Source: a virus. Taken from it: a stretch of DNA of 28,378 nucleotides. Where the stretch lies: the IMG/VR virus record IMGVR_UViG_3300028829_000677, positions 1 to 28,378 of that record, one strand, 5' to 3'. A program made the translations under genes and the position numbers. Shown piece by piece: positions 5,853-28,378 of this stretch. The notes under the pieces are model-generated. The model ran no database searches, was not told the origin of the DNA, and saw only the letters and a program-made list of their open reading frames with translations. Every line of letters starts with the position of its first letter. The stretch's first letter is position 1.

Positions 5853-8800
5853 ATGGCAACTAAAATTATTCATAAGAAATCTTCTGTCGCTTCATCAGTG
5901 CCTTCTACCGGAGACCTAGAACCCGGTGAACTAGCTGTAAACCTAGCTGACCAGAAGATCTATTCAAAGACTACAGGTGGCGCTATTATTGAGATGGCAC
6001 CCTCAGGTGTCACAGAGTCCATCGTAGAGACCGCTAAGAACGTTTCAGGGGTTAGCCTAGCAATAGGTGCACCTGTATACCAGAGCGGCACCTCTGGCAA
6101 CGCTATGGAGGTTCAGGCGGCGCGTGCTGATACTTCCAGTAGTATGCCCGCAGTTGGTCTACTTAACTCTACCCTTGCGGATGAAGCTGAAGGTAGTATC
6201 ACTCTAGTCGGCTTACTTAAAGGTCTTAACACTACTTCTTATTCTGAAGGTGATACCTTATACATTGCTGCGACAGGTGGCTTAACAGCAACACCACCAA
6301 CAGGTGAATCAAACCTTATCCAGAACATTGGTAAGGTTGTTAAAGTACACGCCTCAAATGGCTCTATTATGGTTACTGGTGCTGGTCGTTCTAACGCTAC
6401 ACCTAACCTTGATAATGGTGCTTTCTTCCTTGGTAATGGTTCTAATCAGGCTGTTGCTACTGACTTTGACACGGCTGTTGAGGCTAACTCAAAGATTGCT
6501 GGTATTGAAGCTGGTGCTACTGCTGATCAGACTGCCTCAGAGATCCTAACAGCTATTAAGACAGTTGACGGCTCTGGATCTGGCCTAGACGCTGATACCT
6601 TAGATGGCATTGGTAGTAGCCTTTTTGTATATGGCACCAATTCAAACAAAACTACAAACGTATCCAATCTAAGCACTGCTTTACCTTCTGGTTTTTATGA
6701 TGCTAATAATGCAACGGGATCACCAGCATCGGGTTGGTATACTGTTTACAATGCTCGTCATAACAATATAGGAAACAACTACGGATCGCAGATTGCTTGT
6801 TCGTTCCATGATACGCAAAACTTCTATGTGCGAAACATCTCCAATAATTCATATGGCGCATGGGCCAAAATTTGGAACAGTAGCAATGACGGCTCTGGAT
6901 CTGGCTTAGATGCTGATACCTTAGATAGCATTCAGGCCACTAGCTTCTTACGCAGCGATGCTAATGATAGCTTCAGCGGAACAATTACAAACAGTGGTAC
7001 ATTTGTTTCGTCTCACAACTCAAGCACCCCGTCTACAAATTTAAGGCTTGGTAGAGACGGTAGTCAGTATTACACTTTCCACGGCTCAGCTTCTGGAAAC
7101 TTTTTAACTAGTGTATCTCAAACTAGTAACCCAAAACCCGTCCTAAAATTTGGTTATTCAATAGACGGCGGCTCAACCCTCGCTAGCAACTACACTCTCA
7201 ATGGATCAAGTGGAACCATCTGGCATACTGGTAACGATGGTGCAGGCTCTGGCCTAGACGCTGACACTGTAGATGGTATTGAAGCAAGTGCTTTCCTTCA
7301 AACATCTGGCGGCACTATGACAGGTAACCTTTCTTTAGGTGATAACGATCAGATACTTCTTGGCGCTAGCAATGACCTAACCATCGAGCATAATGCCACC
7401 AACGGGATAATTGCCAACAATACCAATAACCTCTACTTAACTAACACGGTCCAGTCCGACGACGGCTCTGGCGGTATTGCGAATTACTTCGCTGCGGATG
7501 GCTCTACTGGTGAGGCTATGTTGTATCACTACGGGTCTGAAAAGCTGAACACTAAAAGCACCGGCGTTGATATCACGGGCGACCTAACTGTAGACACCAC
7601 TACTCTACACGTTGACAGTACAAACAACCGCGTAGGCATTGGAACCAACGCCCCTGCCGTAGAATTGCATATTGACGGTAGCAACCCACAACTACGTTTT
7701 CAGGTGGTCGACGACACTCATAAAAGCCGAATTGAGTTCTGCGACGCCGCTGGCAATATTGATTCTCAAATTCAAGGCGGTGGTTCCCTTGGAAGCGAGA
7801 TTGATGTTTATGGGTCTTTTCATGTTAATTCTGGGTATAACATGTTGTTTGCTGACAACTCAGAACTTCGCTTTGGCAACAGCAACGACCTAATTATTGA
7901 ACATACCGGAAGTTTCGCCGACATCCGTAATGGCTCCGGCCACATGTACATACGCAACTTTGCGGACGACAGCGACGTTTATATCCAGTCTGACAACGGG
8001 TCAGGTGCCACTACAAATTACTTCGTTGCTGATGGCTCTACTGGCGAAGCAAAGCTGTACCATTACGGAAGTGCGAAGGTCACCACTCAGAGTGATGGCG
8101 CTCACATTTCTGGCGGACTTACGACCAACGACGAAGTTACAGCAAAAGTTGTCACCTACGCTCCTAGCCAAGATGCGCCGTACATGATCGCGGCTACTAC
8201 AAGCTACACAGGGGCAGCTACTAACGCTGGCACTTATGGCCTCCAGCACCGGTATAAATATGATTCCGGCGGGTCATCACGAATTACAGTGGATGGCACT
8301 ATAGGCGGCGTAGCTACGGAGCTTTGGGCATTGTACGGCACCGGTAACATGGATGTCTATGGTAGTCTGGATGTTGGAGGCAACGTCAACCTCGGTGACA
8401 ACGGCAGATTGCGGCTTGGATCGGGCAACGACCTAGACATCTATCACGATGGCGGAAACAGTTACATTGCTGAAACAGGAGCGGGTGCTTTAATATTTAG
8501 GTCTAACACCTATAGCTTTAGGAACAGTGCCAATACAGAACAGGTTATGCTGGCTTCAGAAAATGGTGCTGTTACTCTTTACCATGATAACTCAGCCAAG
8601 CTTGCTACTAGCAGCATTGGCGTAGATGTTACCGGTTCGCTCCATGCATCTAGTACCACTGACGCCTCTCTGTCCTCTACAGGTCATGCTTTCCAAGCAG
8701 GGTCTACTGCTGGCCTAAATCTAGCCATAGATACTAATGAGATCATAGCAAGGAACAACGGCGCTGCATCCCCTCTTTACCTAAACCTAGGGAGCGGAAC

Positions 8801-9416
8801 AACTTTCGTTGGTAGTGATCTGTCTGTGGGCCAACACGTCTACCTCGGCGATTCCCAACAGATACGTCTTGGCGCTAGCAACGATTTGATCCTAGAGCAT
8901 AACGGTAGCAACGGGGTAATTACCAACAATACCAATCACCTCTACTTACAAAACACGGCGGACGACAAAGACATATACCTCCAGACTGACAACGGTTCAG
9001 GCGGCGTTACAAATTACTTTATGGCTGATGGCTCTACTGGCGAAGCTAAGATGTACCACTACGGGTCTGAGAAGTTTGCTACAAAGACTGGCGGTGCAGA
9101 GGTCACAGGAGACTTTACTGCTACGGGTAACGTCACAGCATACTCTGATGAACGCCTTAAGGAAAACATCAAGCCTATCGAGAATGCTGTTGATAAGGTT
9201 AAGCAGCTTCGTGGTGTAACTTATGACTGGAAAGAAACAGGTAAGGCTAGTGTAGGTGTTATTGCTCAAGAAGTAGAGGTTGTTTTACCCGAACTTGTAG
9301 TAGAAAACGAAGAGTACAAGTCTGTAGACTATGGCAAGCTTACTTCTGTTCTTATTGAAGCTATTAAAGATCAACAGAAACAGATTGATGAGCTTAAAGC
9401 TAAGTTAGGAGAATAA
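5853..9416 (+). CDS. Large tail fibre/spike with C-terminal S74 self-cleaving chaperone
   Basis: A 1187-residue modular fibre. Residues 1-50 carry the VPSTGDLEPGELAVNLADQKIY attachment motif common in phage fibres. DGSGSGLDADTLDG-type linkers occur near 239, 346 and 462, flanking a pyocin-knob-like segment (about 270-345, WYTVYNARHNN ... YGAWAKIWNS). Four copies of an LGxSNDLxIEHxG beta-repeat begin near 500, 673, 854 and 1004, three followed by NYFxADGSTGEAxxYHYGSxK. The C-terminus is a peptidase S74 intramolecular chaperone. The YSDERLKENI motif places the autocleavage Ser at S1098 and its partner Lys at K1103, so the last 90 residues should be released after trimer folding. It ends in a coiled coil (IEAIKDQQKQIDELKAKL). 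It is the likely main adhesin. Confidence 0.93.
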   Translation: MATKIIHKKSSVASSVPSTGDLEPGELAVNLADQKIYSKTTGGAIIEMAPSGVTESIVETAKNVSGVSLAIGAPVYQSGTSGNAMEVQAARADTSSSMPAVGLLNSTLADEAEGSITLVGLLKGLNTTSYSEGDTLYIAATGGLTATPPTGESNLIQNIGKVVKVHASNGSIMVTGAGRSNATPNLDNGAFFLGNGSNQAVATDFDTAVEANSKIAGIEAGATADQTASEILTAIKTVDGSGSGLDADTLDGIGSSLFVYGTNSNKTTNVSNLSTALPSGFYDANNATGSPASGWYTVYNARHNNIGNNYGSQIACSFHDTQNFYVRNISNNSYGAWAKIWNSSNDGSGSGLDADTLDSIQATSFLRSDANDSFSGTITNSGTFVSSHNSSTPSTNLRLGRDGSQYYTFHGSASGNFLTSVSQTSNPKPVLKFGYSIDGGSTLASNYTLNGSSGTIWHTGNDGAGSGLDADTVDGIEASAFLQTSGGTMTGNLSLGDNDQILLGASNDLTIEHNATNGIIANNTNNLYLTNTVQSDDGSGGIANYFAADGSTGEAMLYHYGSEKLNTKSTGVDITGDLTVDTTTLHVDSTNNRVGIGTNAPAVELHIDGSNPQLRFQVVDDTHKSRIEFCDAAGNIDSQIQGGGSLGSEIDVYGSFHVNSGYNMLFADNSELRFGNSNDLIIEHTGSFADIRNGSGHMYIRNFADDSDVYIQSDNGSGATTNYFVADGSTGEAKLYHYGSAKVTTQSDGAHISGGLTTNDEVTAKVVTYAPSQDAPYMIAATTSYTGAATNAGTYGLQHRYKYDSGGSSRITVDGTIGGVATELWALYGTGNMDVYGSLDVGGNVNLGDNGRLRLGSGNDLDIYHDGGNSYIAETGAGALIFRSNTYSFRNSANTEQVMLASENGAVTLYHDNSAKLATSSIGVDVTGSLHASSTTDASLSSTGHAFQAGSTAGLNLAIDTNEIIARNNGAASPLYLNLGSGTTFVGSDLSVGQHVYLGDSQQIRLGASNDLILEHNGSNGVITNNTNHLYLQNTADDKDIYLQTDNGSGGVTNYFMADGSTGEAKMYHYGSEKFATKTGGAEVTGDFTATGNVTAYSDERLKENIKPIENAVDKVKQLRGVTYDWKETGKASVGVIAQEVEVVLPELVVENEEYKSVDYGKLTSVLIEAIKDQQKQIDELKAKLGE
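6567..9100 (+). repeat. Interspersed coding repeats within the large fibre gene
   Basis: Two repeat families are visible. GACGGCTCTGGATCTGG-type blocks lie at about 6567, 6888 and 7236 (the last diverged). Longer blocks encoding LGASNDLxIEHN plus NYFxADGSTGEA begin at about 7359, 7869, 8412 and 8862. The blocks at 7359-7550 and 8862-9075 are especially alike in DNA. The first type also occurs in the other fibre gene near 11530. Confidence 0.8.
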
Positions 9417-14059: not shown

Positions 14060-17000
14060 TGACAGGAGTTGAAATACTCGTTGTAGCGCAGATCGTTTTA
14101 ACCGTTGCGTCTATTACTTACCAACAAATTCAAGCTAACAAAGCAAAGAAAGCTGCTGACAAAAACCGTGGCTTTAGGTTTACCGTTGGTGGTGAAGCAA
14201 CCACGGCACCTGTTGTTTATGGTAAACAAATGGTAGGTGGTGTTCACAACAACCCTATTGTATCTAGCGATTATGAACACGCAGCTATTGACGCAGGTGG
14301 TACCGAGTTTAGCCGTCAGTTAGCATCAAGCATTGACGGTAAAAAGAATGAATATCTCTTTATTCAGCTTGCTTTAGCGGCAGAAGGTCTTAATGATTTC
14401 AAGCACCTTAATGTTAACTCTAAACCCTTCACTCACAGGGACTTTAAAGGTAAGCGTAAGGGTCATCGTATTCATGCTTACAAAGATGGTCTTTCTTCTG
14501 GCACAGATAGTATGGCAGCAGCAAACGGTTATCCTACAACAAACAACTTTACTGGTTTCGCGAATGCTCACGCAGCGTTCCGTCTTGACCGTAAGAACTC
14601 GCAATATAACGGTATTCCTAACCTACAGTTCTTTGTGGAAGGCAAGAAGTTAAAGTATGTTAGCGTAACCAATACTCTAGTAAGCACGGAGCGTTATGAC
14701 GGTAATACTGACTCAGGTTGTACGAACCACAATATTGGTAATAACCCTGCTTATGTTCTTCTTGACTACCTAATGAACGCTAATCATGGGGCAGGTGTTC
14801 CTGAAAGTGAAATAGATCTACCTTCTTTCCGCGCTTCTGCTATCGTATGTGATACTACAGTAGCTACTGGAAAAAGTGTAGCAGGCCGAGTAAATGGTTC
14901 ACTACCTGTTGAATTAGCAGGGTCACTACCTGATCCGGATGGTAATAGCGGTCTAGAAGACAAGATCCTTAAAGTAGGTGATGTTTATTATGAGTGGACA
15001 AAGACGGGTGGTAGTTTCGACAGGGAAAGTTCTTTAGAAGGAGAATGGAATGTAGTAACTCTTCCTACTCGTGACGTTCCCTTATATGAATGTAATATCT
15101 CTTTAGACACACAAGAAACTGTTCGTGATAACATTAATAAAATCCTTTCTACAATGGACTTCGCAGAGTTAACTTGGAATTCAGAAGGCAAGTATCAGCT
15201 AAGTGTCAACTACCCTACCAACCAAACAGAACTTGAGGCTTTAGTAGACCCTTCTCATGTATTCGGCGACGAGGATATTGTTCGTGATTCATTTGATATC
15301 GGTTTCTATACTGCTAATGAGCGGTTTAACCAGTTTACTATCTCTTTTAGAAACGAGCATGAGGACTTTAACCAAGACAGTATTACTTGGCCCGCTCGTA
15401 CTAGTAGTGTTTATACAACCTACTTAGACGACGATAACGGTGTTTTTCTCAATGGTAGCGACACTATCGACGGTATCACAGACCCTTATCACGCCAAGGC
15501 TAAGGCCGAACAGATTGTTCGTGCTTCTCGTGCGCAAAATTCAGTATCATTTGTTCTAAACAAAGCAGGTCTAACAGTGGAACCCGGTGACTTAATTAAG
15601 GTTACTTGTTCAGTTGCTGGTGTAACAGATGAGATTTACCGTGTTCAAGCTATCTCTATCACTTCCGATTTCAACTGTAAGATTGAAGCTTACTCTTTCT
15701 CTTGGGACTTCCTTGCTTGGAATGTTGGGGATGGTGCTGTTAATGCCCCCGGTGCGGAAAGAGACTTTGTAGAATTCAAAGTAGATGATGTAGAAAATGT
15801 TGCATATGTTGCAGGTAGTGATACCTCAGACTATAACATTGGTAAGCTGACTTGGGACTTCCCAACAGACTTTAATGCTGAAAAGGTTAAGATTTATCAA
15901 AAGCTATCTTCTGCTTCGGACTATGTTTATATAGGTGAAACACAGGCTGATGAGTTTTTTATTCCGTTTTTAGAAAATGGTACTTACGATTTTGAGCTTG
16001 AAAGTGTTTCTCCTCTCGGTTCTGTTAATGATGGCGTAGAACTTACTAACGTATCAGTAACAAACGAGCCAGAAGAAGTAGCTAATATTGTTGCCGCTGA
16101 AGAGCTATATTATACTAACGTTGCAGCAGGTGTAAAATCTAAACTAATTATTAACTGGGATTCACCTACATCTGGTGTTGCTCCTCTTCTATTCAGAGTT
16201 TCTATTAAACCTGCCGCTGACTCTACTTACGTTCATGTATTAGACGTAGGTAAAGGCAGTACTAACGAGGCTGAAATCTTTGACCTTGAGGCAGGTATCT
16301 ACGATATTAAGATTGAAACCGTTTCTTTCAGGGGTATTGTAAGCACAGGGGTTATTCTTCGTAAGACTGTTGCAGGTAAGTCAACCTTACCTTCAGATCC
16401 TACAGGCTTTACAGGTAACCTCAACGGTGAAAACATTTCACTAAGCTGGAATTTACCAACTGCTAACAATGACCTTGATGTTGTTTATGGCGGTTCTTCA
16501 CAGATTCGTTATTCTTCTTCAACCGATGGTTCTGCTTCTTGGGAGTCATCTGTTACTCTTGTGGAATCTCTTGCAGGCGCTGTTACTAACAAAACAGTGC
16601 CGACCCTACCGGGAACATATTTGATTAAGTTTGAGGACTCCTCTGGTAACCTTTCTGCTAACGCTGCTACCTTTATTAGTACATTCATTGACCCTAACTT
16701 TAATGTTGTTACTACAGTTGATGAAAATACTGGCGGATTTACAGGTACTAAAACTAACTGTTCAGTTGTTAGCGGGGACTTAGTACTTAACTCAGGTCAG
16801 ACAGAAATGACTTATGAGTTTGCTAACACAGTAAACCTTAACGAATCTACCATTGTCAGGTTAACTCCAGACTTTAATGCTGTTGCTACTCAAAGAAACC
16901 AAGCAATGAAGGACTACACAAGCATTGCTTCTGTTCCTCGATTTGCAGGTAGTATTGAGCCAGCAGCTATTACCGTCTATGTTAAGACATCAGAAGATAA

Positions 17001-18580: not shown

Positions 18581-20158
18581 ATGGCTTTATTACGTAAACC
18601 ATCTAATAACCGTAAGAGGTCTGTTGCTGATCCTAGTGACATTTATCATTCTTTAGCACCTCTATGGAAAAAGTCTCGTGCTATCCTTCAAGGGCAGTCT
18701 AACGTTAAGGCTCACGATGATCTTATCGATCGTTCATACGGAAACCTCTTGCTACCCTTCTCCCCTAGCATGACTCAGGCTCAGTATGACTTTTATCGTT
18801 CTGAAGCAGAACTCCCCGGACTTACTTCACAGTATGCTCGTGTGTTGATTAGTTCTCTTCTACGTAAGCGATCACAACTAACACTACCTGAAGAATTAAC
18901 TAACCTTGCAGCATCAGACCCTATGGAGTGGATTGAAACTAACTTTACTCTTGATGGTCGTTCTTTGTTCAACTTCCTAGACATGGCTTTATGGGAAGAA
19001 CTTCAGACATCTCGCGCTTGGGTTTATGTTGATTTTCCACAGGTATCAGACGAACAATTTTTTAATTTAACTCCTGAAGAGCGTGACACGGTAAACCCTT
19101 ATCCTGTACTTCTTAAGGCCGAGCATGTTATTAACTATCACACAAACATGCATCCGATTACTCGTAAGCGTACTCTTACACGGCTTGTTACTCGTTATGT
19201 TCGTGAAGATTACTCAAACAATCAGTGGCACCCAGATTATATTGACACTGTATGTGATCATTATCTTGATGACGAAGGTAAGCTAGTTCTGAACTATTAC
19301 CGTAAGAAAGATTCAACTCACGATGTTCAAGTCCTAAACGGTGATATTTCTCGTGAATATGCTGAGAGCGCCTCTGAATCAGGCTTTGAACTTTATGATA
19401 CCGTCTATCCAATGAAGTTTGGTGAACGCCTAGGTAAGATCCCTGCGTGGCCCCTTAACGGTCATATTGATCCTGTTGAGCCAGTTCTAATGCCTCTCAT
19501 CGATCGTGAAGCATCACTCTACAACAAAGTATCTCGTCGTAACCATCTACTGTATGGTGCAGCAACTTACACTCCTATTGTATCTTCTGATATGAGTGAC
19601 GAAGAGTTCGAGGAACTAGTTGGTGCTGGTCTCGGTACTTGGCTACGTGTACGTGCTGGTGAGTCAGTTAGTGTTCTAGAAACACCGACTTCTGCGCTAT
19701 CAGACATGGACCGTGCTATTGACAACACCGTTAATGAAATGGCTAAGATGGGTATTCGGATGCTTTCACCTGAACAAGCCGCTTCAGGTATTGCCTTAGA
19801 GATTCGTAACTCCTCACAGACAGCACAGCTTGGTACACTAAACGCTAAAGTATCTTCCACAATGGAATCAGTTATTGCTTTCATGCTTAACTGGAAATAC
19901 GGTACAGACTACAGTTCTCGTGATATTGAGTTCTCCTTATCAAGTGACTTCTCACCAATGGTAGGTGGTAACGAGTCTATGCGTCTAGTTTCAGAGTGGT
20001 ATCAGTCAGGACTTATTAGCCGTTCTACTTGGCTTAACATTGCTAAGTTCAACGATTTCCTTCCTGCTGACTATGATGATGAAGAAGCAATTCAAGAGAT
20101 TCAGACAGACCCGCTAACACAGCAGGTTCCTGATGATCAAGTAGATATTGAAGAATAA
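18581..20158 (+). CDS. Portal protein (DUF4055-like)
   Basis: A 525-residue portal, the dodecameric gate at the head vertex where the terminase docks and DNA passes. Evidence: the N-terminal segment with YGNLLLPFSPSMTQAQYDFYRSEA; SLFNFLDMALWEELQTSRAWVYVDFP at about 128-153; the DREASLYNKVSRRNHLLYGAATYTPI helix/strand; and a long helix after SPEQAASGIALEIRNSSQTAQLG. The pattern matches the DUF4055 portal family as I recall it. Length is typical. The acidic C-terminus (DPLTQQVPDDQVDIEE) is common in portals. Position before MuF, scaffold and capsid genes is the standard head order, which supports the call. Ribosome site AGGTGA precedes the ATG. Confidence 0.87.
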   Translation: MALLRKPSNNRKRSVADPSDIYHSLAPLWKKSRAILQGQSNVKAHDDLIDRSYGNLLLPFSPSMTQAQYDFYRSEAELPGLTSQYARVLISSLLRKRSQLTLPEELTNLAASDPMEWIETNFTLDGRSLFNFLDMALWEELQTSRAWVYVDFPQVSDEQFFNLTPEERDTVNPYPVLLKAEHVINYHTNMHPITRKRTLTRLVTRYVREDYSNNQWHPDYIDTVCDHYLDDEGKLVLNYYRKKDSTHDVQVLNGDISREYAESASESGFELYDTVYPMKFGERLGKIPAWPLNGHIDPVEPVLMPLIDREASLYNKVSRRNHLLYGAATYTPIVSSDMSDEEFEELVGAGLGTWLRVRAGESVSVLETPTSALSDMDRAIDNTVNEMAKMGIRMLSPEQAASGIALEIRNSSQTAQLGTLNAKVSSTMESVIAFMLNWKYGTDYSSRDIEFSLSSDFSPMVGGNESMRLVSEWYQSGLISRSTWLNIAKFNDFLPADYDDEEAIQEIQTDPLTQQVPDDQVDIEE

Positions 20159-20233: not shown

Positions 20234-20308
20234 GCCGGTTTAGCTGAGTTGGTTTAGCAGCTGATTTGTAATCAGCAGACGGGGGTCCGAATCCCTCAAC
20301 TGGCACCA
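20234..20308 (+). tRNA. tRNA-Thr(UGU), CCA encoded
   Basis: 75 bases fold as a complete cloverleaf. The acceptor GCCGGTT pairs with AACTGGC (one G-T). The D arm is GCT-GAGTTGGTTT-AGC. The anticodon stem GCTGA/TCAGC surrounds loop TTTGTAA, whose anticodon TGT reads ACA (Thr). The variable loop is AGAC. The T arm is GGGGG-TCCGAAT-CCCTC. The 3' end ACCA is encoded. It lies between the portal and MuF-RNAP genes on the same strand, so it must be processed out of the head transcript. ACA is a frequent Thr codon in the surrounding genes, so the tRNA may support late-gene translation. Confidence 0.95.
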
Positions 20309-20337: not shown

Positions 20338-23300
20338 ATGAGTGCTAATGATAAAGTCTTTGATAGGATCATTGACAACGCGGCTGATGTTCGCCTCTAT
20401 GAAGAGGGCGTCCAGCTGCAAAACAGGCGTATCGTTAAACGCCATAGAAAGAATTTAAGAGATCTTTTGCGCGGCGATGTACGTGCAGACGTAACCAAAG
20501 AAGTAAACCGCTTTGGTCGTGAGCTACTTGTACATCAGACAGGTTCCGTTAAGGAGCTTTCTACTGCTGCATTAGACTTCCACACAGACAACCTCAACAA
20601 AGAGGTAAGGAAATTTTATAAGACATCTCGTCCTCGTAGCAAAGAGCTACTAGCAGAAGTTACAGGTCCCTTAATTAAAGGTGACAAGTCAATTTCGAAG
20701 AATATTAGAAACATCTCTGCTGGTGAACTTGTTCGTATTCAGACCAAGGTTAAAGGCGGACTAGCTCGTGGTGCTGGTAAAAACGAGATTATACAAGACG
20801 TACTGAAGACAACTAAGTTAACCGAGCATCAAGCTAAAACGCTAACAAGGACTTCTATTACATCCACACAAAGTGCTGCCTTAAATAAAGTAGTACAACA
20901 GAACAAAGACATTATCTCTGGCTATGTGTTTACTGCTATTCTTGATAGCAGAACTAGTCCTACTTGTCAACACCATAACGGAAAGTTTTACGATGTAAAT
21001 GATGATAGGTTTGTCCCTCCATTACATTGGAACTGTCGTAGTACTCTTGTACCCGTAATTAAAAGCAAAGAAGATCTCCTCAAAGAAGACACTTCTAAGC
21101 TCAAAAAGAATAAACTTAAAGAAGCTAATGAACTAGACTTTAACGGTAAACCTACTAAACCACAAAGTTTTACTAACTGGTTACGAGGTCAGCCCTTAGA
21201 TATTAAGTCAAAGTTCTTAGGTGGTATGGAAAAGGCTAATCTGTTTGACACAGGTGCTTTAAAGGTTTCTGACTTTGTTACATCAAAAGGTAAGGGGTTA
21301 TCTATCTCTGCTCTACGCCGTAAAGCTGCTCAGATTACTTCTGTGTATCCTAACCGGCAAAAGGTAAGAGAAGTTAACCTAAAAGCCACTGCTAACACTC
21401 CTAACCAGCTTCTAAACAACCCTGCTAAAAAAGAAGAGCTAAGGAATCTTTTCCTACTAGACTCTGACGACTACAACCAGTCTATTGCTCTTACTGACTT
21501 TAAGGGTACATCCTTGGTTGGTAAGCAAGCTAGTCGTAGGCGAGTTAGTAATCAGTTTGATGAACGGAACTTCTCTGTTGATCCTATGACTGGTGAAGTT
21601 AAGAATAACCTACTGTATGACCCTGACTATACTCTGCTTCAGGAACGTACTGACTTTCTACGTAACTCTAAGCTTCTTTCCTCAGAACAAAAGAACTTTA
21701 TTGAAGACTTCGCAGGTTCTATTGAAGGTAAGGTTTCAGTAAACCAACAGACAGTTGTTACAGAAAACCTACGTGTTGTCTTTGAACGTTTTGCTAAAGA
21801 CAAGACTAAGTGGGATGATCTTGGGTCTATTGTTCGTGCTGAGAACCGCTTTGCTGTTCAGAACGTGTCAAGACTACTAGATACTCGTTCTCGTCAGCGT
21901 TCTTCAATGTTTTCCCGCTTTGCTACAGATGATACGCCTAAAGTTCAAATCATGGGTGACTACTACAGTCTTGATGACCTACAAAAGAACATGCTTAAAG
22001 ATCAGCGTTTCATTGATGGATGGCGTCAGAACGAAGGTCGTAAGTTAGCACGTAAAGTATACTTCTCTGGTAGAGCACCTTTAAAGACATACTTCAGAGG
22101 TTTAACTGAGAAGTACCCTACTAAAAAGCGTATTGTCAAAAAGCTAAAAGATAAAGCTACCCCCGGCTTCGTTAAGAAGTACAATGACTTCGTTAAGAAG
22201 CGCGGTGAACCTTCTGATGATTGGCTAGTAAGAACCTATGCAGCTGGTCGTGAAAAGGTAAGGCAAATACTTGATATTGAATTTTCTTTGGCTAAAAAGA
22301 AACCTAAACCCCTTATTGCAGATGACATGGCATTAAACGAAATATCCAAGGCTGCTAAACTTGTAGCAAGCGGTCAGTCAACCGACTATGACACTTTGGC
22401 TATTAACATCGGTAAGAAGTTTGATAAAGACGAGAAGTTCCTGGAACTCAACCCCTTTAAAAAGAATACTCTGCAAGACTATCACAAGGACGGTAGCCGT
22501 ATTCTTGATCTTATGGTTGACCAGAACCTTATTCGTACTAACTTCCGAGGTAAAGTCCGCAGGGGTGTTGTAGACGTTGACACAGGGCGCGCTTCTGGAT
22601 CTTGGGGAGATACACTCTCAAGAGAAGTTCAGGTCATTGACAAGGGTCTGCTAGAGCTTCAAAAAGCAGAACGCAGGGTTACTATTGCCAGGCGTTTAGG
22701 TAATGTCTCTGATAGAGACCGTCTTTATGCCAAGGCTAACAGTACAAACTACTTTGATGCCCGTGGTAAAGAAACTGGAGCCTCTATTGTTACTCGCCGT
22801 GCTTCGGCTACTTTCGATAAGAAGCAGGTTGATCGTGACTTCTCAAACATGCTTAATCAGGTTATGAACACTGAGTATGAAGTTGATAGTGAATACTTTG
22901 ACTTCATGGATAAGCTACTTCGCTTCCGTGACCCTCGTGGTAATGTTAAGAAGTATGACGAACTAAACGAATTCCGTCACCTTATCTTACAACGTGGTGA
23001 ACAGGGTTACGGCATGATGGCCACTGCCAAGTGGCACAGGCAACGGGGTAAACCTTTTAGAACTAACGCTCAGATTGATGGTCGTGGTCGTGTTTATCAC
23101 TCAGGTTACCTGACACCTACTGGTGGTGAGACTGTTCGACCCTTCCTTAACTCCGCTCGTAAGGTAAACTTCTCACCTAAAGCTCTCGATGAACTACGCA
23201 TTCAAACCGGAGCCATGATCGGACCCGGCACAGAGGCGCTCACAGAGGCAGGTAGGAGAGCCATCTTTGCTCGCAATGAGGCGAGGATACGGGAAGTAGG

Positions 23301-24723
23301 AGACCTTGTTCTAGCGCCCACACAGAGAGACAGGCGTGTAAGAGAGTTTCTAGAGAACCCCTTAGTACGTCAGTTTGAAGGTGAAGAGATTCCTAAGTTC
23401 TCTCGTCTAGCTACTGAGTATGCTCGTGTGTATAAACACACCAACGGTGACTTAACAGATGTAAATAAACTACGATCTTACAAGACTCAGCTAATGATCG
23501 AAAACGATGCGTCCTCAAGTGGTGCTCAGATTATTGGCTTGTCTACACGAGATCGTAATATTTCAATTAACAGTAACGTTCTAGCTACAGATAAAAAGAA
23601 CAGGTTGTATGACCTTGTAGCTATGGACACTGCAAACGACCCTGAGTTATTAAAGATCCCTGCTTTAAGGGATGCTGATATTGACTGGGAAGATTTGGCG
23701 AAAGCCGCTAAAGCACAGAACATGGTGTCGTTCTACGGTGCGGGTGATGCAACCCAAGCCGCAAACATCGAAGCTAAGTTCTCAAAGGTGCTTGATGTAA
23801 AAGGCTTTCAAGTAATCACTAAAGCTGAAGTTTCAGAATTCTCAAGAAAGATTGAATCAGCTGCCAAGCAAGCCGACCGTGTCGGGGCTGAAGCAACTGC
23901 TACTCAGTTAAGAGGTATGAAGGCTGAAGTTATTGAACTTGTAAATAAGAACGAGCCTGTGGGTCGTGGCTTATTAAAGCAAGCACAAGACATTCATCCT
24001 GCTAGTTCTGATTTTGTCAACAAACTAACGGATACCCGTAGAGGTATCGTAGGGCCAAAAGACTTTGAAGCGGTCTCAAGGATCATGTCAAAACATTTGG
24101 CTGAACGAGCACCTGTTACTCTAGACTTCGTTAGATTTTGGAACAAAGCAGCTAAAACTTATGTACGTGAAACAGAGAGTGTTGATGTACCGTGGGTGAC
24201 TTTCGACGGAAAGAAACTCAAACAAACGGCTTACAGATCACCTTTACAAGAGCGTATAGAGTTTACAGACCCTGTGTCCGGACGTAAAGTAGCAAACATT
24301 TACGAAGCACAAGCTGAAGATGGTAAACTCCTAGGTAAGTCATCTATTCAGAGAGCTGGTATCGGCGCTGGGGTTAACGGCAACCACATGAACGACGCAA
24401 CACTTGTTCGTCAATTTCATTTGTGGGGGCGTAAAAATAAAGTACCTACTGCATCAATCCACGATGCATTCTTTACTAACATCGGCGATGCTGATCTAGC
24501 AAAGAATGCACTTCGTGATATTTATGGTGATGCTGTAGAAGGGGAGACTATTCGTAAAACTTTAAAATACATGAGAGACGAAGGTTTATCCAACAAAAGC
24601 TATAGAGAGCTATTAGCAGAAGCTAAGTCTCTCGGACTCGTAGATCCTGAAGGTGGGATCACCAAAAAGGATGTATTAGCACCAATTCCTGACGGCAAAA
24701 GCTGGTATGGGATCGGTCCTTGA
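20338..24723 (+). CDS. MuF minor head protein fused to a T7/N4-type single-subunit RNA polymerase
   Basis: 1461 residues in one uninterrupted frame. Residues ~1-240 are a MuF (SPP1 gp7-like) domain: TRTSITSTQSAALNKV, then a C210-x2-H213 / H230-x2-C233 pair in DSRTSPTCQHHNG and PLHWNCRS. Residues ~240-880 are basic and unrecognised. Residues ~900-1461 carry polymerase motifs in order: DxxGR D914-R918 (IDGRGRVY); motif A D1057 in D-A-S-S-S-G-A-Q (T7 D537); motif B K1125, Y1133, G1134 in KAQNMVSFYGAG (T7 K631, Y639, G640); WVTFDGKKL and LQERIEF (T7 WVTPDG, IQTRLNL); H1350-x2-D1353 (T7 H784 region); motif C H1375-D1376 in SIHDAFFT (T7 H811-D812). The position of T7 R627 is A1121 with K1122 beside it. 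It starts after AGGAGA and lies between portal and scaffold. MuF proteins bind portal and enter the head, so this is probably a packaged, ejected RNA polymerase (inference). Confidence 0.92.
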   Translation: MSANDKVFDRIIDNAADVRLYEEGVQLQNRRIVKRHRKNLRDLLRGDVRADVTKEVNRFGRELLVHQTGSVKELSTAALDFHTDNLNKEVRKFYKTSRPRSKELLAEVTGPLIKGDKSISKNIRNISAGELVRIQTKVKGGLARGAGKNEIIQDVLKTTKLTEHQAKTLTRTSITSTQSAALNKVVQQNKDIISGYVFTAILDSRTSPTCQHHNGKFYDVNDDRFVPPLHWNCRSTLVPVIKSKEDLLKEDTSKLKKNKLKEANELDFNGKPTKPQSFTNWLRGQPLDIKSKFLGGMEKANLFDTGALKVSDFVTSKGKGLSISALRRKAAQITSVYPNRQKVREVNLKATANTPNQLLNNPAKKEELRNLFLLDSDDYNQSIALTDFKGTSLVGKQASRRRVSNQFDERNFSVDPMTGEVKNNLLYDPDYTLLQERTDFLRNSKLLSSEQKNFIEDFAGSIEGKVSVNQQTVVTENLRVVFERFAKDKTKWDDLGSIVRAENRFAVQNVSRLLDTRSRQRSSMFSRFATDDTPKVQIMGDYYSLDDLQKNMLKDQRFIDGWRQNEGRKLARKVYFSGRAPLKTYFRGLTEKYPTKKRIVKKLKDKATPGFVKKYNDFVKKRGEPSDDWLVRTYAAGREKVRQILDIEFSLAKKKPKPLIADDMALNEISKAAKLVASGQSTDYDTLAINIGKKFDKDEKFLELNPFKKNTLQDYHKDGSRILDLMVDQNLIRTNFRGKVRRGVVDVDTGRASGSWGDTLSREVQVIDKGLLELQKAERRVTIARRLGNVSDRDRLYAKANSTNYFDARGKETGASIVTRRASATFDKKQVDRDFSNMLNQVMNTEYEVDSEYFDFMDKLLRFRDPRGNVKKYDELNEFRHLILQRGEQGYGMMATAKWHRQRGKPFRTNAQIDGRGRVYHSGYLTPTGGETVRPFLNSARKVNFSPKALDELRIQTGAMIGPGTEALTEAGRRAIFARNEARIREVGDLVLAPTQRDRRVREFLENPLVRQFEGEEIPKFSRLATEYARVYKHTNGDLTDVNKLRSYKTQLMIENDASSSGAQIIGLSTRDRNISINSNVLATDKKNRLYDLVAMDTANDPELLKIPALRDADIDWEDLAKAAKAQNMVSFYGAGDATQAANIEAKFSKVLDVKGFQVITKAEVSEFSRKIESAAKQADRVGAEATATQLRGMKAEVIELVNKNEPVGRGLLKQAQDIHPASSDFVNKLTDTRRGIVGPKDFEAVSRIMSKHLAERAPVTLDFVRFWNKAAKTYVRETESVDVPWVTFDGKKLKQTAYRSPLQERIEFTDPVSGRKVANIYEAQAEDGKLLGKSSIQRAGIGAGVNGNHMNDATLVRQFHLWGRKNKVPTASIHDAFFTNIGDADLAKNALRDIYGDAVEGETIRKTLKYMRDEGLSNKSYRELLAEAKSLGLVDPEGGITKKDVLAPIPDGKSWYGIGP

Positions 24724-24753: not shown

Positions 24754-24806
24754 ATATTAGGGGATGTTCCCTAGAATAAATTTAACACAACTCTGTCTGT
24801 GACAGA
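24754..24806 (+). promoter_or_regulatory. Hairpins between MuF-RNAP and scaffold genes
   Basis: The 95-base gap holds TAGGG/CCCTA around GATGTT (24757-24772) followed by an A/T-rich stretch. It also holds a perfect 6-bp stem with a 3-base loop, TCTGTC-TGT-GACAGA at 24792-24806, placed immediately before the scaffold ribosome site (AAAGGAT). The second may modulate scaffold translation or serve as a promoter element. Confidence 0.5.
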
Positions 24807-24818
24807 AAGGATATTAAA

Positions 24819-25520
24819 ATGAGTATTGAAGAAGATAAAGTAGCTGTAGAATCATCAGCTGTAGAAGAACCCTCCGTAAACGAAACAGTTATTGCTGAAG
24901 CAGAAGCAGAAACCCCTGCTGCAGAAGCTGGAGAAGTTACAGAGGATGCACTAGAAGCCGCAGTAAATGAACGCCTATCAAAGATGAAGGCGAACATGGA
25001 CCGCATGGCCTCAGAGCGCGACGAAGCTTTGAAGATTAAGAACCAGATGGAAGCAGACGCAAAATCTGCTAAAATCAAACAACTAGAAGAAGAAGGCAAA
25101 CTACAAGAACTAGCAGAAATGAAAATTGCTGATCTTGAAGCGAAGCTAAAAGTCTTTGAAGCAGAAAACGTAAAACTTAATCGTGATAATGTCGTTAACA
25201 CCAAACTCGGTGCTCTTGACTTCCGTAATGATCGTAGCCGTGATATGGCCCGTAAGGACATTGTTGATCAGCTTGTTCAAAGTGAAGAAGGTGCTTGGGT
25301 GCACAAATCTGGCGTTGGCATCAACGACTTTATTGAATCATACTCAAAGAGTGAAGACAACTCTTTCTTATTCCGTGTCAAATCCAATTCTGGGGCTGGC
25401 ACTTCCGCAACTCCATCACAGACCTCTGCTCCATCAGAAAACAAAAGCATTATGGACATGTCTACTGATGAGGTACTCGCTCTAGCCGCCGCTGGTAAGC
25501 TAGGGACACAATCATACTAA
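24819..25520 (+). CDS. Capsid scaffolding protein
   Basis: A 233-residue acidic protein. Residues 1-45 are rich in Glu, Ala and Val (low complexity). Residues about 46-130 are predicted long coiled coil with charged heptads (ERDEALKIKNQMEADAKS, KQLEEEGKLQELAEMKIADLEAKL). A globular segment around VVNTKLGALDFRNDRSRDMARKDI follows. The tail is Ser/Thr/Pro-rich and ends with a short helix (MDMSTDEVLALAAAGKL) likely to contact coat protein. Composition, length and position directly before the major capsid gene fit a head scaffold that is lost or degraded on maturation. No protease is seen in this window. Confidence 0.88.
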   Translation: MSIEEDKVAVESSAVEEPSVNETVIAEAEAETPAAEAGEVTEDALEAAVNERLSKMKANMDRMASERDEALKIKNQMEADAKSAKIKQLEEEGKLQELAEMKIADLEAKLKVFEAENVKLNRDNVVNTKLGALDFRNDRSRDMARKDIVDQLVQSEEGAWVHKSGVGINDFIESYSKSEDNSFLFRVKSNSGAGTSATPSQTSAPSENKSIMDMSTDEVLALAAAGKLGTQSY

Positions 25521-25556
25521 TACATAGTAAAAAGCTATATCTTAAGGAATAGAATA

Positions 25557-26672
25557 ATGCCTATTACAAACTCTGACTTTCAGAACGTAAACCTCGCAAT
25601 CTCAGCTTATGCTGACGAAGCTTACACAACTGCCAAAAAGCTAAACAGCTCAGGTATCGTTGGAAGCCGTGACGACATCAAAACCGACATGGAATCTTTT
25701 GTTGGCCAGATGCGCTACTACAAACCACTTGCAAAGCAGATCAACATTGCAAGCCTTTCTTCTTCAACAGATGGCACATACACTGACATCAGCACTGAAA
25801 TCGCTAACTACGTTAAAACAGTTCGCACATTTGGCGCACAGCAGGTCAACATGCAGGAAGTTATTTCCCAGCAGGACGGTCTAATGAAAATCGCTCGTGA
25901 CTTCGCTGAAGTCCGCGCACAGGACGAACACGACGCACTACTAGCAATCCTAAAAGGTGTTGCTGCTTCAGAGGTTACTCTCGGTGACCTCGGTGGCTCC
26001 GGTAACGGTGGTTACATCGCATTCGACACAGATGGCGACGCTTCTGCAACGGGTCACTTCGTTGACATCAACGCCCTAGGTGAATTCGGTGCCGCTGCAA
26101 CAGGTGCTGGCGACGCTCGTAAACTATTCGACTCTTCAGCGGCGGGTGCTGCCCGTGGTGAGCGTCTATTCAAAGCTGTCGGCATGGCAATGAAAGACTA
26201 CGAGCCAGACTTTATGTACCTTGTAACTTCACCTGAGATCATGGCTGAAATGCGTGCCGCCAACCTTGTTGACGAAACACGCGTTCAGGACGGCAACCTC
26301 GAATTCCAGACTGTTTTCGGTGGCAAATTCCGCCTAATTATGACTCGTGCCAACCAGTTTGGTACATTTGCCTCTGGTGACCTAAACGCACAGTCAACCA
26401 AATGTTCATTCATCATTAAGCCGGGTGCTGTTTCAGCTGCTCCAATCGCTGTACCAATGCCTGTTGAAGTTGACCGCGACGCGGCTTCTTACACTGGTGG
26501 TGGTTCAACAAACGTTTGGTACCGTTACGGCTTCGTAATGCACCCCGGTGGTTACGACTGGGCTGGTTCAACTTCTGCGTTCGCAACCAACACAACACTA
26601 GGTGCTGCTGCTTCTTACACTCGTAAGTGGGGCGCTCTAAATCTAGAGATTCTACCAGTCTTCCACGCCTAA
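25557..26672 (+). CDS. Major capsid protein (HK97-fold)
   Basis: 371 residues. N-terminal helix region MPITNSDFQNVNLAISAYADEAY, an extended segment, a central domain with QDEHDALLAILKGVAAS (spine-helix-like), then LVTSPEIMAEMRAANLVDE and the C-terminal VMHPGGYDWAGS ... RKWGALNLEILPVFHA. Codon use changes here to many C-ending codons (AAC, GAC, ATC), as expected for the most highly expressed virion gene. It follows the scaffold and precedes the connector genes. An AAGGAAT ribosome site lies upstream. The family resembles coat proteins annotated from marine phages; exact Pfam is not determined. An HK97 fold is inferred from context and pattern. Confidence 0.88.
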   Translation: MPITNSDFQNVNLAISAYADEAYTTAKKLNSSGIVGSRDDIKTDMESFVGQMRYYKPLAKQINIASLSSSTDGTYTDISTEIANYVKTVRTFGAQQVNMQEVISQQDGLMKIARDFAEVRAQDEHDALLAILKGVAASEVTLGDLGGSGNGGYIAFDTDGDASATGHFVDINALGEFGAAATGAGDARKLFDSSAAGAARGERLFKAVGMAMKDYEPDFMYLVTSPEIMAEMRAANLVDETRVQDGNLEFQTVFGGKFRLIMTRANQFGTFASGDLNAQSTKCSFIIKPGAVSAAPIAVPMPVEVDRDAASYTGGGSTNVWYRYGFVMHPGGYDWAGSTSAFATNTTLGAAASYTRKWGALNLEILPVFHA

Positions 26673-26690
26673 TAGCTTTGGAGAGAACTA

Positions 26691-27200
26691 ATGGCACTAG
26701 TACTAAACACAAACAGTTATGTTACTGTGGATGAGGCAGACTCATACTTTGAGACTCGCATTGACTCAGCTAATTGGACTGCTGCCGATGACGAGATTAA
26801 AGAATCTGCGCTAGTTACAGCTACAGATCTTGTAGATGATAACGCATGGATTGGTTCTGCTGTTAGTTCTTCCCAAGCACTCGCATGGCCACGCAATAAC
26901 GCTACCTACTACGACACCCGTATGGGTACGTCAATTACTATTGGTAGCACTATTGTACCTGATCAAGTAAAAGAAGCTGTCTATGAACAAGCACTTCATC
27001 TTGTAGATAACGAAGATCTATTACAGGGTAAGACACAAACGTTTGAGTCTATCTCTGTTGGATCAATTAGCATTTCCGATAGTAACAACGACGTTACCCG
27101 GACCTCTATTAAACCTAAGCTAGTTCGCAATAAGATTCGTCTATTGCTAAACAAAGCCTATGCTAATGGCGTAGGTAGCCAATGGTGGAGGGCTAATTAA
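26691..27200 (+). CDS. Head-tail connector, DnaT-like adaptor
   Basis: 169 residues starting MALVLNTNSYVTVDEADSYFETR, then W, KESALVTATDLVDDNAWIG, LAWPRNNATYYD and VPDQVKEAVYEQALHLV. This matches what I recall of the DnaT-like/head-tail adaptor family (SYVTVxEADxYF, ALxxATDxxD, LAWPR, IPxxVKxAxxExAL), a helical adaptor that binds under the portal. Position directly after the capsid gene is standard. The ribosome site GGAGAGAACTA is shared with MuF-RNAP. Confidence 0.82.
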   Translation: MALVLNTNSYVTVDEADSYFETRIDSANWTAADDEIKESALVTATDLVDDNAWIGSAVSSSQALAWPRNNATYYDTRMGTSITIGSTIVPDQVKEAVYEQALHLVDNEDLLQGKTQTFESISVGSISISDSNNDVTRTSIKPKLVRNKIRLLLNKAYANGVGSQWWRAN

Positions 27201-27541
27201 TGTCTTTATCTGCTAAGTTGACTGCTGCCGTAGACAAAGCTTTTACTGCTGCTGGAGACTTGGTTAAGACTGCTACACTATCTGATAAGACTGTTTCAGG
27301 TTATGATTTTTCAACTGGAACAGCAACAAGCACTTCTAAGACAGTTACTGTCGATATTATTCTATTTACAAAGTCACTCCCTTCGGGGGGTGGCTACTCT
27401 GTAGAGGGGATAATAAAGTCTTCAAGTGCTATCGATGTTAATGTATACGACACGATTACTGTCGGCTCAGATAGCTATAACATTATTAGTGCTGCGGATG
27501 ATGGTTTCGCAATTACTCTCCAACTTAAAAAGGAGAAGTAG
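27200..27541 (+). CDS. Putative head-closure or neck protein
   Basis: 113 residues starting MSLSAKLTAAVDKAFTAAGDLVKTATLSD, then a beta-rich body with GGGYSVEGIIKSSS and VNVYDTITVGSDSYNIISAADDG. The pattern (N-terminal amphipathic helix, then strands including an xxGDxxxxxxxYxI-like element) fits head-closure/neck proteins (SPP1 gp16-like or phage stopper) and the gene order. Its ATG overlaps the upstream stop (TAATG). The family is inferred from position and fold pattern. Confidence 0.65.
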   Translation: MSLSAKLTAAVDKAFTAAGDLVKTATLSDKTVSGYDFSTGTATSTSKTVTVDIILFTKSLPSGGGYSVEGIIKSSSAIDVNVYDTITVGSDSYNIISAADDGFAITLQLKKEK

Positions 27542-27943
27542 ATGTACGCTACCTTAATCTCTAGCATAGAAAACTTGTTCGCATCTGCTACTTGGACTGC
27601 TGCTAACATAGCAATTTATCCTGATAACTATCAGGGAACTATTTCAGACCAAAACGAGTTTTGCAGACTTAACATTCTTCCTGCCTCTGGTACTACCCAA
27701 GATCATAACGGGAAGAAAACTCTATCAGGTACGGTTATTGTCACGATGTATGTAAAAGCTGGGGAGGGTCAACGTCGTGTTTCTGCTATTGCAGACACAT
27801 TAGACACTCTTCTTGAGCACAAATATCCAACATCCGGCCTTGGGCTTGGAGCCTCCTTTGTCACTATTGGAGGTTTAGATTCACAGAACTCTGCGTTATA
27901 TACAGCGCAATACATTATACCATTTACATACTATGAGGATTAA
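27542..27943 (+). CDS. Tail terminator-like protein (gpU / DUF4128-like)
   Basis: 133 residues starting MYATLISSIENLFASATWTAANIAIYPDNY, with FCRLNILPASGTTQ, VIVTMYVKAGEGQRRVSAIADTLDTLLEHK and a C-terminal strand YTAQYIIPFTYYED. A helix-strand pattern with a central amphipathic helix (RRVSAIADTLDTLL) is typical of the tail terminator ring that caps the tail tube, including the DUF4128 family. It lies exactly where expected, between neck and tail tube genes, with AAGGAGA upstream. Confidence 0.78.
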   Translation: MYATLISSIENLFASATWTAANIAIYPDNYQGTISDQNEFCRLNILPASGTTQDHNGKKTLSGTVIVTMYVKAGEGQRRVSAIADTLDTLLEHKYPTSGLGLGASFVTIGGLDSQNSALYTAQYIIPFTYYED

Positions 27944-27949
27944 ATAGAA

Positions 27950-28378
27950 ATGGCACATATTTCTGACCTTCGCGCAGGTATTTATACATACCTCGACATT
28001 CACACAGTTGCACCAGTTGATGCTACAGACACCGCTGCTGAATACGCTGCTCTATTCGTAGGCTCAACTCCCGGCACAGCTGACACTTCAGACGGTGACA
28101 CAACAGGCGTTGCAGAACACCTACGTATGCCTTCTGTCCGTGAGTTCCCTTCAATCGGTACACCTGCAAACATCGTAAACGTTCCTGTTTACGGTCAGGC
28201 TAGCTCTTCACAGGTTCAGGGCCAAGCCGACGCCCCTAACCTTGAAATAACAATCAACTACAATGCAGCAGATGCTGGCGATCTACACGATCTAATTGGC
28301 AAGGCTGTTACATTCCGCTTTATGATGGTTGACGCCGCTTGTACACTAGATGAAGCTGCCGACACTACCCTTTCTGGC
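27950..28378 (+). CDS. Major tail tube protein (partial, N-terminal 143 residues)
   Basis: An ATG at 27950 opens a frame that runs off the window end. It starts MAHISDLRAGIYTYLD and includes VREFPSIGTPANIVNVPVYGQASSSQVQGQADAPNLEITINYN. The G-xPANIVNVPVYGxxxxxQVQGQADAPxLE pattern is, from memory, characteristic of siphovirus tail tube proteins. Its place after the tail terminator supports this. Codon use is C-rich like the capsid gene, as for an abundant protein. Confidence 0.87.
   Translation, partial: MAHISDLRAGIYTYLDIHTVAPVDATDTAAEYAALFVGSTPGTADTSDGDTTGVAEHLRMPSVREFPSIGTPANIVNVPVYGQASSSQVQGQADAPNLEITINYNAADAGDLHDLIGKAVTFRFMMVDAACTLDEAADTTLSG

Follow-up and report, generated by a model that had tools for sequence, protein, structure and literature searches.

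A MuF head protein fused to a T7-type RNA polymerase, probably carried in the virion of aquatic siphoviruses

Why would a long-tailed phage encode an RNA polymerase (RNAP) among its head genes, and what might that enzyme do? The question is raised by a gene at positions 20338-24723 of IMG/VR virus record IMGVR_UViG_3300028829_000677, a stretch of 28,378 nucleotides that was analysed at its full length and is here called the window. The gene is a single intact plus-strand open reading frame (ORF) with an ATG start and an AGGAG Shine-Dalgarno sequence, and its 1461-amino acid product, which we call MuF-RNAP, joins a MuF domain to a predicted T7-type polymerase. MuF-RNAP is probably a virion-carried polymerase that would be loaded into the head, ejected at infection and used to transcribe early genes, including the gene for a second phage polymerase (RNAP2).

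The two halves of the protein

The initial annotation, made from the sequence letters, had reported MuF Cys/His motifs followed in one frame by a complete-looking single-subunit polymerase with its motifs in T7 order. Every residue it named is in place, and the frame is open over all 1461 codons. By sequence, the N-terminal part is a MuF domain: the Pfam family Phage_Mu_F matches residues 134-237 with 58.8 bits against a curated cut-off of 29.6 (E 1.1e-15), and PHROG 241, a head morphogenesis family, matches the same part of the protein with E 1.5e-44. The MuF Cys/His motif as a whole is nearly invariant among homologues, and its residues C210, H230 and C233 are invariant.

For the polymerase half, PHROG 414, to which T7 RNAP itself belongs (1139 bits), matches residues 910-1149 with E 5e-18, and a profile comparison with T7 RNAP using hhalign gives E 2.5e-7. 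The PF00940 match is weak in the window protein (E 1e-3, under the curated cut-off) and is above the cut-off in most relatives. A phmmer search of PDB sequences found no relative. We assessed conservation in an alignment of 139 rows, which are the window protein and 138 non-identical homologues with 30-100% identity to it. Residues D914, R916, R918, D1057, K1125, Y1133, G1134, H1350, D1353, H1375 and D1376 are the same in every row, and because these catalytic residues are invariant, MuF-RNAP is very likely to be an active polymerase.

The predicted fold agrees with this picture. An AlphaFold model of residues 262-1461, computed with 39 sequences, has a predicted local distance difference test (pLDDT) score of 78.5 and a predicted template modelling (pTM) score of 0.71. 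Its best PDB matches by Foldseek are T7 RNAP (E 2.5e-19), and VIA-align superimposes it on T7 residues 38-882 with Z 31.5 and a root-mean-square deviation of 3.7 over 522 residues, covering palm, fingers, thumb and N-terminal domain. Three lines of evidence (sequence, conservation and predicted fold) thus show the C-terminal two thirds of the protein to be a catalytically complete T7-type polymerase. The initial annotation had proposed residues 850-1461 for a structural check against T7 RNAP; the polymerase is there, but because the match reaches T7 residues 38-882 we place its start at about residue 548 and its end at about residue 1459, with an N-terminal domain included.

Among known enzymes, MuF-RNAP is closer to T7 RNAP and mitochondrial RNAP (Z of about 28 to the latter) than to the virion RNAP (vRNAP) of phage N4 (Z 17.7 to N4 mini-vRNAP). 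This refines the initial annotation, which had pointed to N4 as the known case of a polymerase in a virion. Descent from N4 vRNAP is unsupported, with no match to PHROG 2206 and an hhalign E of 0.64 against N4 vRNAP. Recent duplication of the phage's own RNAP2 is also unsupported, given hhalign values of E 0.18 against RNAP2 and 2.5e-7 against T7 RNAP, although with single-sequence templates this is a weak test.

The fused architecture recurs in metagenomes, as had been proposed for checking: one query yielded 119 confirmed IMG/VR loci and a profile query 380, the best 80 being kept each time. Among the proteins read, more than 100 show the fusion starting at the N-terminus, and they come from many samples. 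Full-length fusions with 58% identity to the window protein are encoded by the cultured roseophages DSS3_VP1 and DSS3_PM1 (Naomviridae), in whose records they are annotated only as minor head protein-like protein and the polymerase domain is unnamed; the DSS3_VP1 product (QGH74596.1) has 1463 amino acids. Among viral structural models, the DSS3_VP1 protein ranked first and was followed by free T7-like RNAPs. An artificial assembly join of separate MuF and RNAP genes, which would have undone the initial annotation, is rejected by the presence of the fused ORF in more than 100 independent contigs and in both cultured phages. The DSS3 phages and the window's phage have the same head-gene order and a similar RNAP2, and the window is without a replication module; a place in Naomviridae is possible for the window's phage. 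The MuF-RNAP family corresponds to a large, mostly aquatic group of phages.

The second polymerase and an upstream element

RNAP2 is a free T7-like RNAP of 722-737 amino acids. It accompanies MuF-RNAP in seven of the nine records that are at least 46 kb long, the exceptions being the partial record of EBPR siphovirus 1 and a 52-kb contig that, as estimated from the usual spacing, may end before the RNAP2 region. It is also present in nine of 11 MuF-RNAP contigs found through the early element described below, giving 16 records in all. DSS3_PM1 has RNAP2 as well, and the pair extends to a relative with 30% identity, on a contig of a gammaproteobacterial metagenome-assembled genome (MAG).

In DSS3_VP1 (MN602266.1), 13 strong copies of TAATAGGKTRCGTTAAAGAGGG occur on the plus strand at 2.2-29.4 kb and 45.9-59.2 kb, and the motif is absent from the early block, which extends from 35.7 kb to RNAP2. 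This type of motif is 22 bp long and resembles a T7 promoter. Its copies, all within positions 2240-59194, are located at middle and late genes, and their placement suggests that TAATAGGKTRCGTTAAAGAGGG is probably the promoter from which RNAP2 transcribes these genes. RNAP2-type promoters were also sought de novo: the window yielded none, and of the distant contigs only one has a related element.

In DSS3_VP1, the tape measure gene and its terminator are followed by the early block, ahead of which are two identical 30-bp copies of AAAGTGAGAAAACTAAGGCATCTATAATGA, near positions 35,795 and 36,242. Seven other genomes have matching copies upstream of RNAP2 when at most 11 mismatches are allowed, and the conserved element upstream of RNAP2 reads GTGAGAAAA...A.G.ATCTATAAT. 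When IMG/VR was searched blind with the pattern GTGAGAAAANNNANGNATCTATAAT, 103 stretches were recovered; the reversed pattern, used as a control, gave no matches. All 23 contigs of at least 26 kb from this search encode a single-subunit RNAP. MuF-RNAP is present in 11 of these contigs, and the other 12 seem, judging by their coordinates and the spacing typical of the group, to stop short of the MuF-RNAP region. In stretches that contain RNAP2, every one of 65 element copies is on the RNAP2 strand and 0.8-7 kb upstream of the gene. The conserved stretch is about 38 bp long and includes AAAAGTGAGAAAA; beyond the bases used in the search it comprises A-rich flanks and a downstream GA.A.AA.

A hairpin often follows TATAA directly, with a 5' arm that begins at a fixed base. 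If the folded segment is shifted by two bases, folding energy weakens from about -3.0 to about -0.8 kcal/mol. At 35 of 80 non-redundant sites the arm forms a five-pair stem with the site's own partner; across 2000 partner swaps the mean number of such sites was 9.6 and the highest 17. The stems comprise seven different arm sequences, a pattern of covariation. The swaps leave relatedness among the sites in, so we regard the covariation as supportive rather than conclusive.

The relative with 30% identity does not have the GTGAGAAAA...A.G.ATCTATAAT element. Three copies of a different repeat precede its RNAP2; in these, GGTATCTTATATGA is followed by an ATAGGA-ATAA-TCCTAT hairpin and TATAAT is absent. 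The three-copy repeat with a perfect hairpin is located at positions 14833, 16949 and 17365 of contig L299, a MAG contig of JAOUJT.

The window's own phage has the layout of three elements and RNAP2, as seen through overlapping contigs. Contig L197 overlaps window positions 24757-28378 at 99.945% identity, and beyond the overlap it carries a tape-measure-like open frame of 1556 codons and three copies of the early element. Contig L263 overlaps L197 in turn at 99.97% identity, and there RNAP2 lies about 4 kb after the last copy.

Proposed role and competing explanations

Of the MuF proteins, SPP1 gp7 has been studied most: it gains entry to the procapsid through its binding to the portal, and delivery of MuF-fused toxins at infection is believed to follow this route (PMC6316719). 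By analogy with gp7 and the toxin fusions, the MuF domain of MuF-RNAP would bind the portal and carry a small number of molecules into the procapsid, and on infection the protein would leave the head together with the DNA. We place MuF-RNAP inside the head with good confidence, and consider its ejection into the cell quite likely. Much like N4 vRNAP and the P23-45 virion RNAP, the ejected enzyme would then transcribe the early block, starting from the conserved element and its hairpin, a use that the sequence evidence makes reasonably likely. As the early block includes the RNAP2 gene, RNAP2 could next transcribe middle and late genes from promoters of its own, such as TAATAGGKTRCGTTAAAGAGGG in DSS3_VP1. 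Features of the virion-RNAP class are present, namely an RNAP linked to a structural component and an early block with promoter-like elements and a second phage RNAP. The role in first-round transcription that had been assigned to the fusion gains from RNAP2, from the early element and from the contigs continuing the window, where the layout is the same, while packaging, ejection and promoter use are steps that we infer.

Several observations weigh against this scheme. A folded protein of 165 kDa could cross a long tail only if it were unfolded or had a special route. A model of the N-terminal 600 residues matched helical bundles only when compared with the PDB, and no solved MuF structure was among the structural matches listed. 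The partial record of EBPR siphovirus 1 shows neither RNAP2 nor the early element. Neither conservation of the specificity loop nor its covariation with promoter elements told the two phage polymerases apart. Finally, the early element includes a perfect TATAAT, which makes the host RNA polymerase a possible reader.

MuF-RNAP might accordingly be packaged and active while host sigma-70 polymerase reads the early element, the virion enzyme mainly pulling DNA into the cell or using other sites. TATAAT is found in every copy of the element, though it was part of some of the search patterns. However, by inspection there is no -35 hexamer 15-19 bases ahead of it, and conservation over about 38 bp that takes in AAAAGTGAGAAAA is not a sigma-70 pattern. 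The final base of TATAAT is also the first of the hairpin, which would therefore contain a sigma-70 start some seven bases farther on, and sigma-70-like sites are not in excess in the DSS3_VP1 early region. The distant relative preserves the layout with GGTATCTTATATGA and a hairpin, a different sequence and no TATAAT, which argues for a phage-encoded reader over sigma-70 without proving it. We judge host reading of the element unlikely.

Because the gene is located in the late structural cluster, the polymerase could instead be made late and act in the cell that produces it, for example on late genes, with the MuF domain serving only head assembly and no delivery taking place. Such a late role already appears to be filled by RNAP2, with its promoter-like motif at middle and late genes; moreover, the fusion is kept intact over 30-100% identity, and MuF proteins enter the interior of the head (PMC6316719). 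This explanation is improbable. Still less likely, to the point of being hardly credible, is the view that the polymerase-like part has lost catalysis and survives as a structural remnant of the head protein. The equivalent of T7 R627 is A1121, so this arginine is not kept, and the adjacent K1122 is nearly invariant. Yet the metal- and substrate-binding residues are all invariant in the 139 proteins, down to 30% identity, and motif B is a target of mobile introns, which is also seen in conserved enzymes.

Genomic setting and relation to known systems

In gene content the window is part of a siphovirus-type phage genome, with all genes on the plus strand. Besides the head cluster (Table 1), it encodes terminase, a PhoH-like protein, tail fibres, distal tail protein, a lambda J-like protein, holin and endolysin. 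The order portal, MuF-RNAP, scaffold, major head protein puts the fusion gene in a position matching the SPP1 gp6-gp7 arrangement, and the portal is the expected docking partner of the MuF domain. A tRNA-Thr gene is located at 20234-20308, between portal and MuF-RNAP. The DSS3 phages have tRNA-Asn at the corresponding spot and the most distant relatives have none; a tRNA at this place was rejected as a conserved part of the system since it occurs only in the window and its nearest relatives.

Table 1. Features of the head-gene cluster and of MuF-RNAP, in window coordinates
Feature	Position	Strand	Evidence or remark
Portal protein gene	18581..20158	+	PHROG 145 portal, E 2.9e-50; just upstream of MuF-RNAP
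MuF-RNAP fusion gene, 1461 amino acids	20338..24723	+	Intact homologues in >100 contigs
MuF domain core, residues 134-237, with C210/H213 and H230/C233	20737..21048	+	Pfam PF04233, E 1.1e-15
Predicted single-subunit RNA polymerase, residues 548-1459 (N-terminal domain, thumb, palm, fingers)	21979..24714	+	AlphaFold model; VIA-align Z 31.5 to T7 RNAP 38-882
DxRGR motif, residues 914-918	23077..23091	+	D914, R916, R918 in 139/139 proteins; aligned with T7
Motif A catalytic aspartate D1057 (DASSSG)	23506..23508	+	139/139 proteins
Motif B, K1125 to Y1133-G1134, spacing as T7 K631-Y639	23710..23739	+	139/139 proteins
Beta-hairpin where T7 has its promoter-specificity loop, residues 1302-1325	24241..24312	+	Predicted hairpin; placed by alignment to T7
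HxxD motif, residues 1350-1353	24385..24396	+	139/139 proteins
Motif C, H1375-D1376	24460..24465	+	139/139 proteins
Conserved C-terminus YGIGP	24706..24720	+	Y1457 and G1458 in all 135 proteins reaching this position; model end aligns with T7 residue 883
Head scaffolding protein gene	24819..25520	+	PHROG 206, E 1.3e-7
Major head protein gene	25557..26672	+	PHROG 247, E 2.1e-28

Some relatives have unusual gene structures. In EBPR siphovirus 1 (L083), the MuF-RNAP gene is split inside motif B by a group I intron that carries a gene for an HNH endonuclease (positions 23179-23405 and 23359-24039), and the halves are annotated as separate proteins. IMGVR_UViG_3300034072_000514 contains insertions of about 250-310 codons within long open frames, one at the same motif B site of MuF-RNAP (52645-53390) and one within RNAP2 (8020-8960). 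These are candidate inteins, and the MuF-RNAP segment also shows a stop. Three divergent MuF-RNAPs (L061, L069 and L070) have some 330-500 additional residues ahead of the conserved YGIGP. Two divergent copies of MuF-RNAP are on contigs of one gammaproteobacterial MAG (L107 and L108), which are probably phage contigs binned with their host. A dCMP-deaminase-like gene is common in the group, and the dTMP phosphatase family of the DSS3 type is found in only three of 24 records, so the fusion is not tied to uracil-containing DNA.

Virion polymerases are already known, and in one siphovirus such an enzyme is joined to a structural protein; the nearest precedents are N4 vRNAP and the tape-measure-fused vRNAP of P23-45. 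N4 vRNAP (gp50, Schitoviridae) is likewise a single-subunit virion enzyme of related fold that carries out early transcription before a second phage RNAP takes over. However, N4 is a podovirus, and its vRNAP has 3500 amino acids, injection and packaging regions of its own, no MuF domain and no sequence-profile similarity to MuF-RNAP. A survey of polyvalent proteins reported N4-type RNAP only in N4-like phages (PMC5512222). Phage P23-45 is a siphovirus in which a virion RNAP, gp96, is fused to a structural protein, a second, non-virion RNAP is made early and a dedicated early motif exists (PMC10770324). Unlike MuF-RNAP, which is of T7 type and joined to a portal-associated head protein, gp96 belongs to another polymerase superfamily, being a double-barrel RNAP akin to cellular enzymes, and is fused to the tail tape measure. 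T7 RNAP shares its complete fold and all catalytic motifs with MuF-RNAP, but it is a free protein made after entry, and MuF-RNAP is fused to MuF and about 550 N-terminal residues longer; the counterpart of free T7 RNAP in these phages is RNAP2.

SPP1 gp7, Mu F and the MuF-toxin fusions have the same arrangement of a MuF domain beside the portal gene, with cargo at the C-terminus. Fusions of MuF to enzymes have been described (PMC5512222), but in the toxin fusions the cargo is a toxin, RNase or protease, whereas here it is an RNA polymerase. DSS3_VP1 and DSS3_PM1, with the same gene order and a separate RNAP gene, are known relatives of the window's phage. Literature searches, whose scope did not include the first paper on these two phages, found no described MuF-RNAP fusion. 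The combination is new as far as we found, in line with the initial annotation, and a prior mention in that paper is possible.

We lean towards a separate origin of virion RNAPs in which an enzyme of the T7/mitochondrial type was captured by the MuF route in widespread aquatic siphoviruses. It would have a promoter class of its own, consisting of a 38-bp block and a positioned hairpin, that turns on a second polymerase and makes early transcription independent of the host. If this is true, the MuF entry route, which has until now been associated with toxins and enzymes that modify the host, would deliver a transcription enzyme as well, and virion polymerases would have more than one origin, in different polymerase families. 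The concrete early promoter element and the two cultured phages make the idea directly testable, and the element and its enzyme may provide a new promoter-polymerase pair for in vitro transcription. Widespread aquatic phages, including roseophages with uracil-containing DNA, could then start gene expression without promoter recognition by the host.

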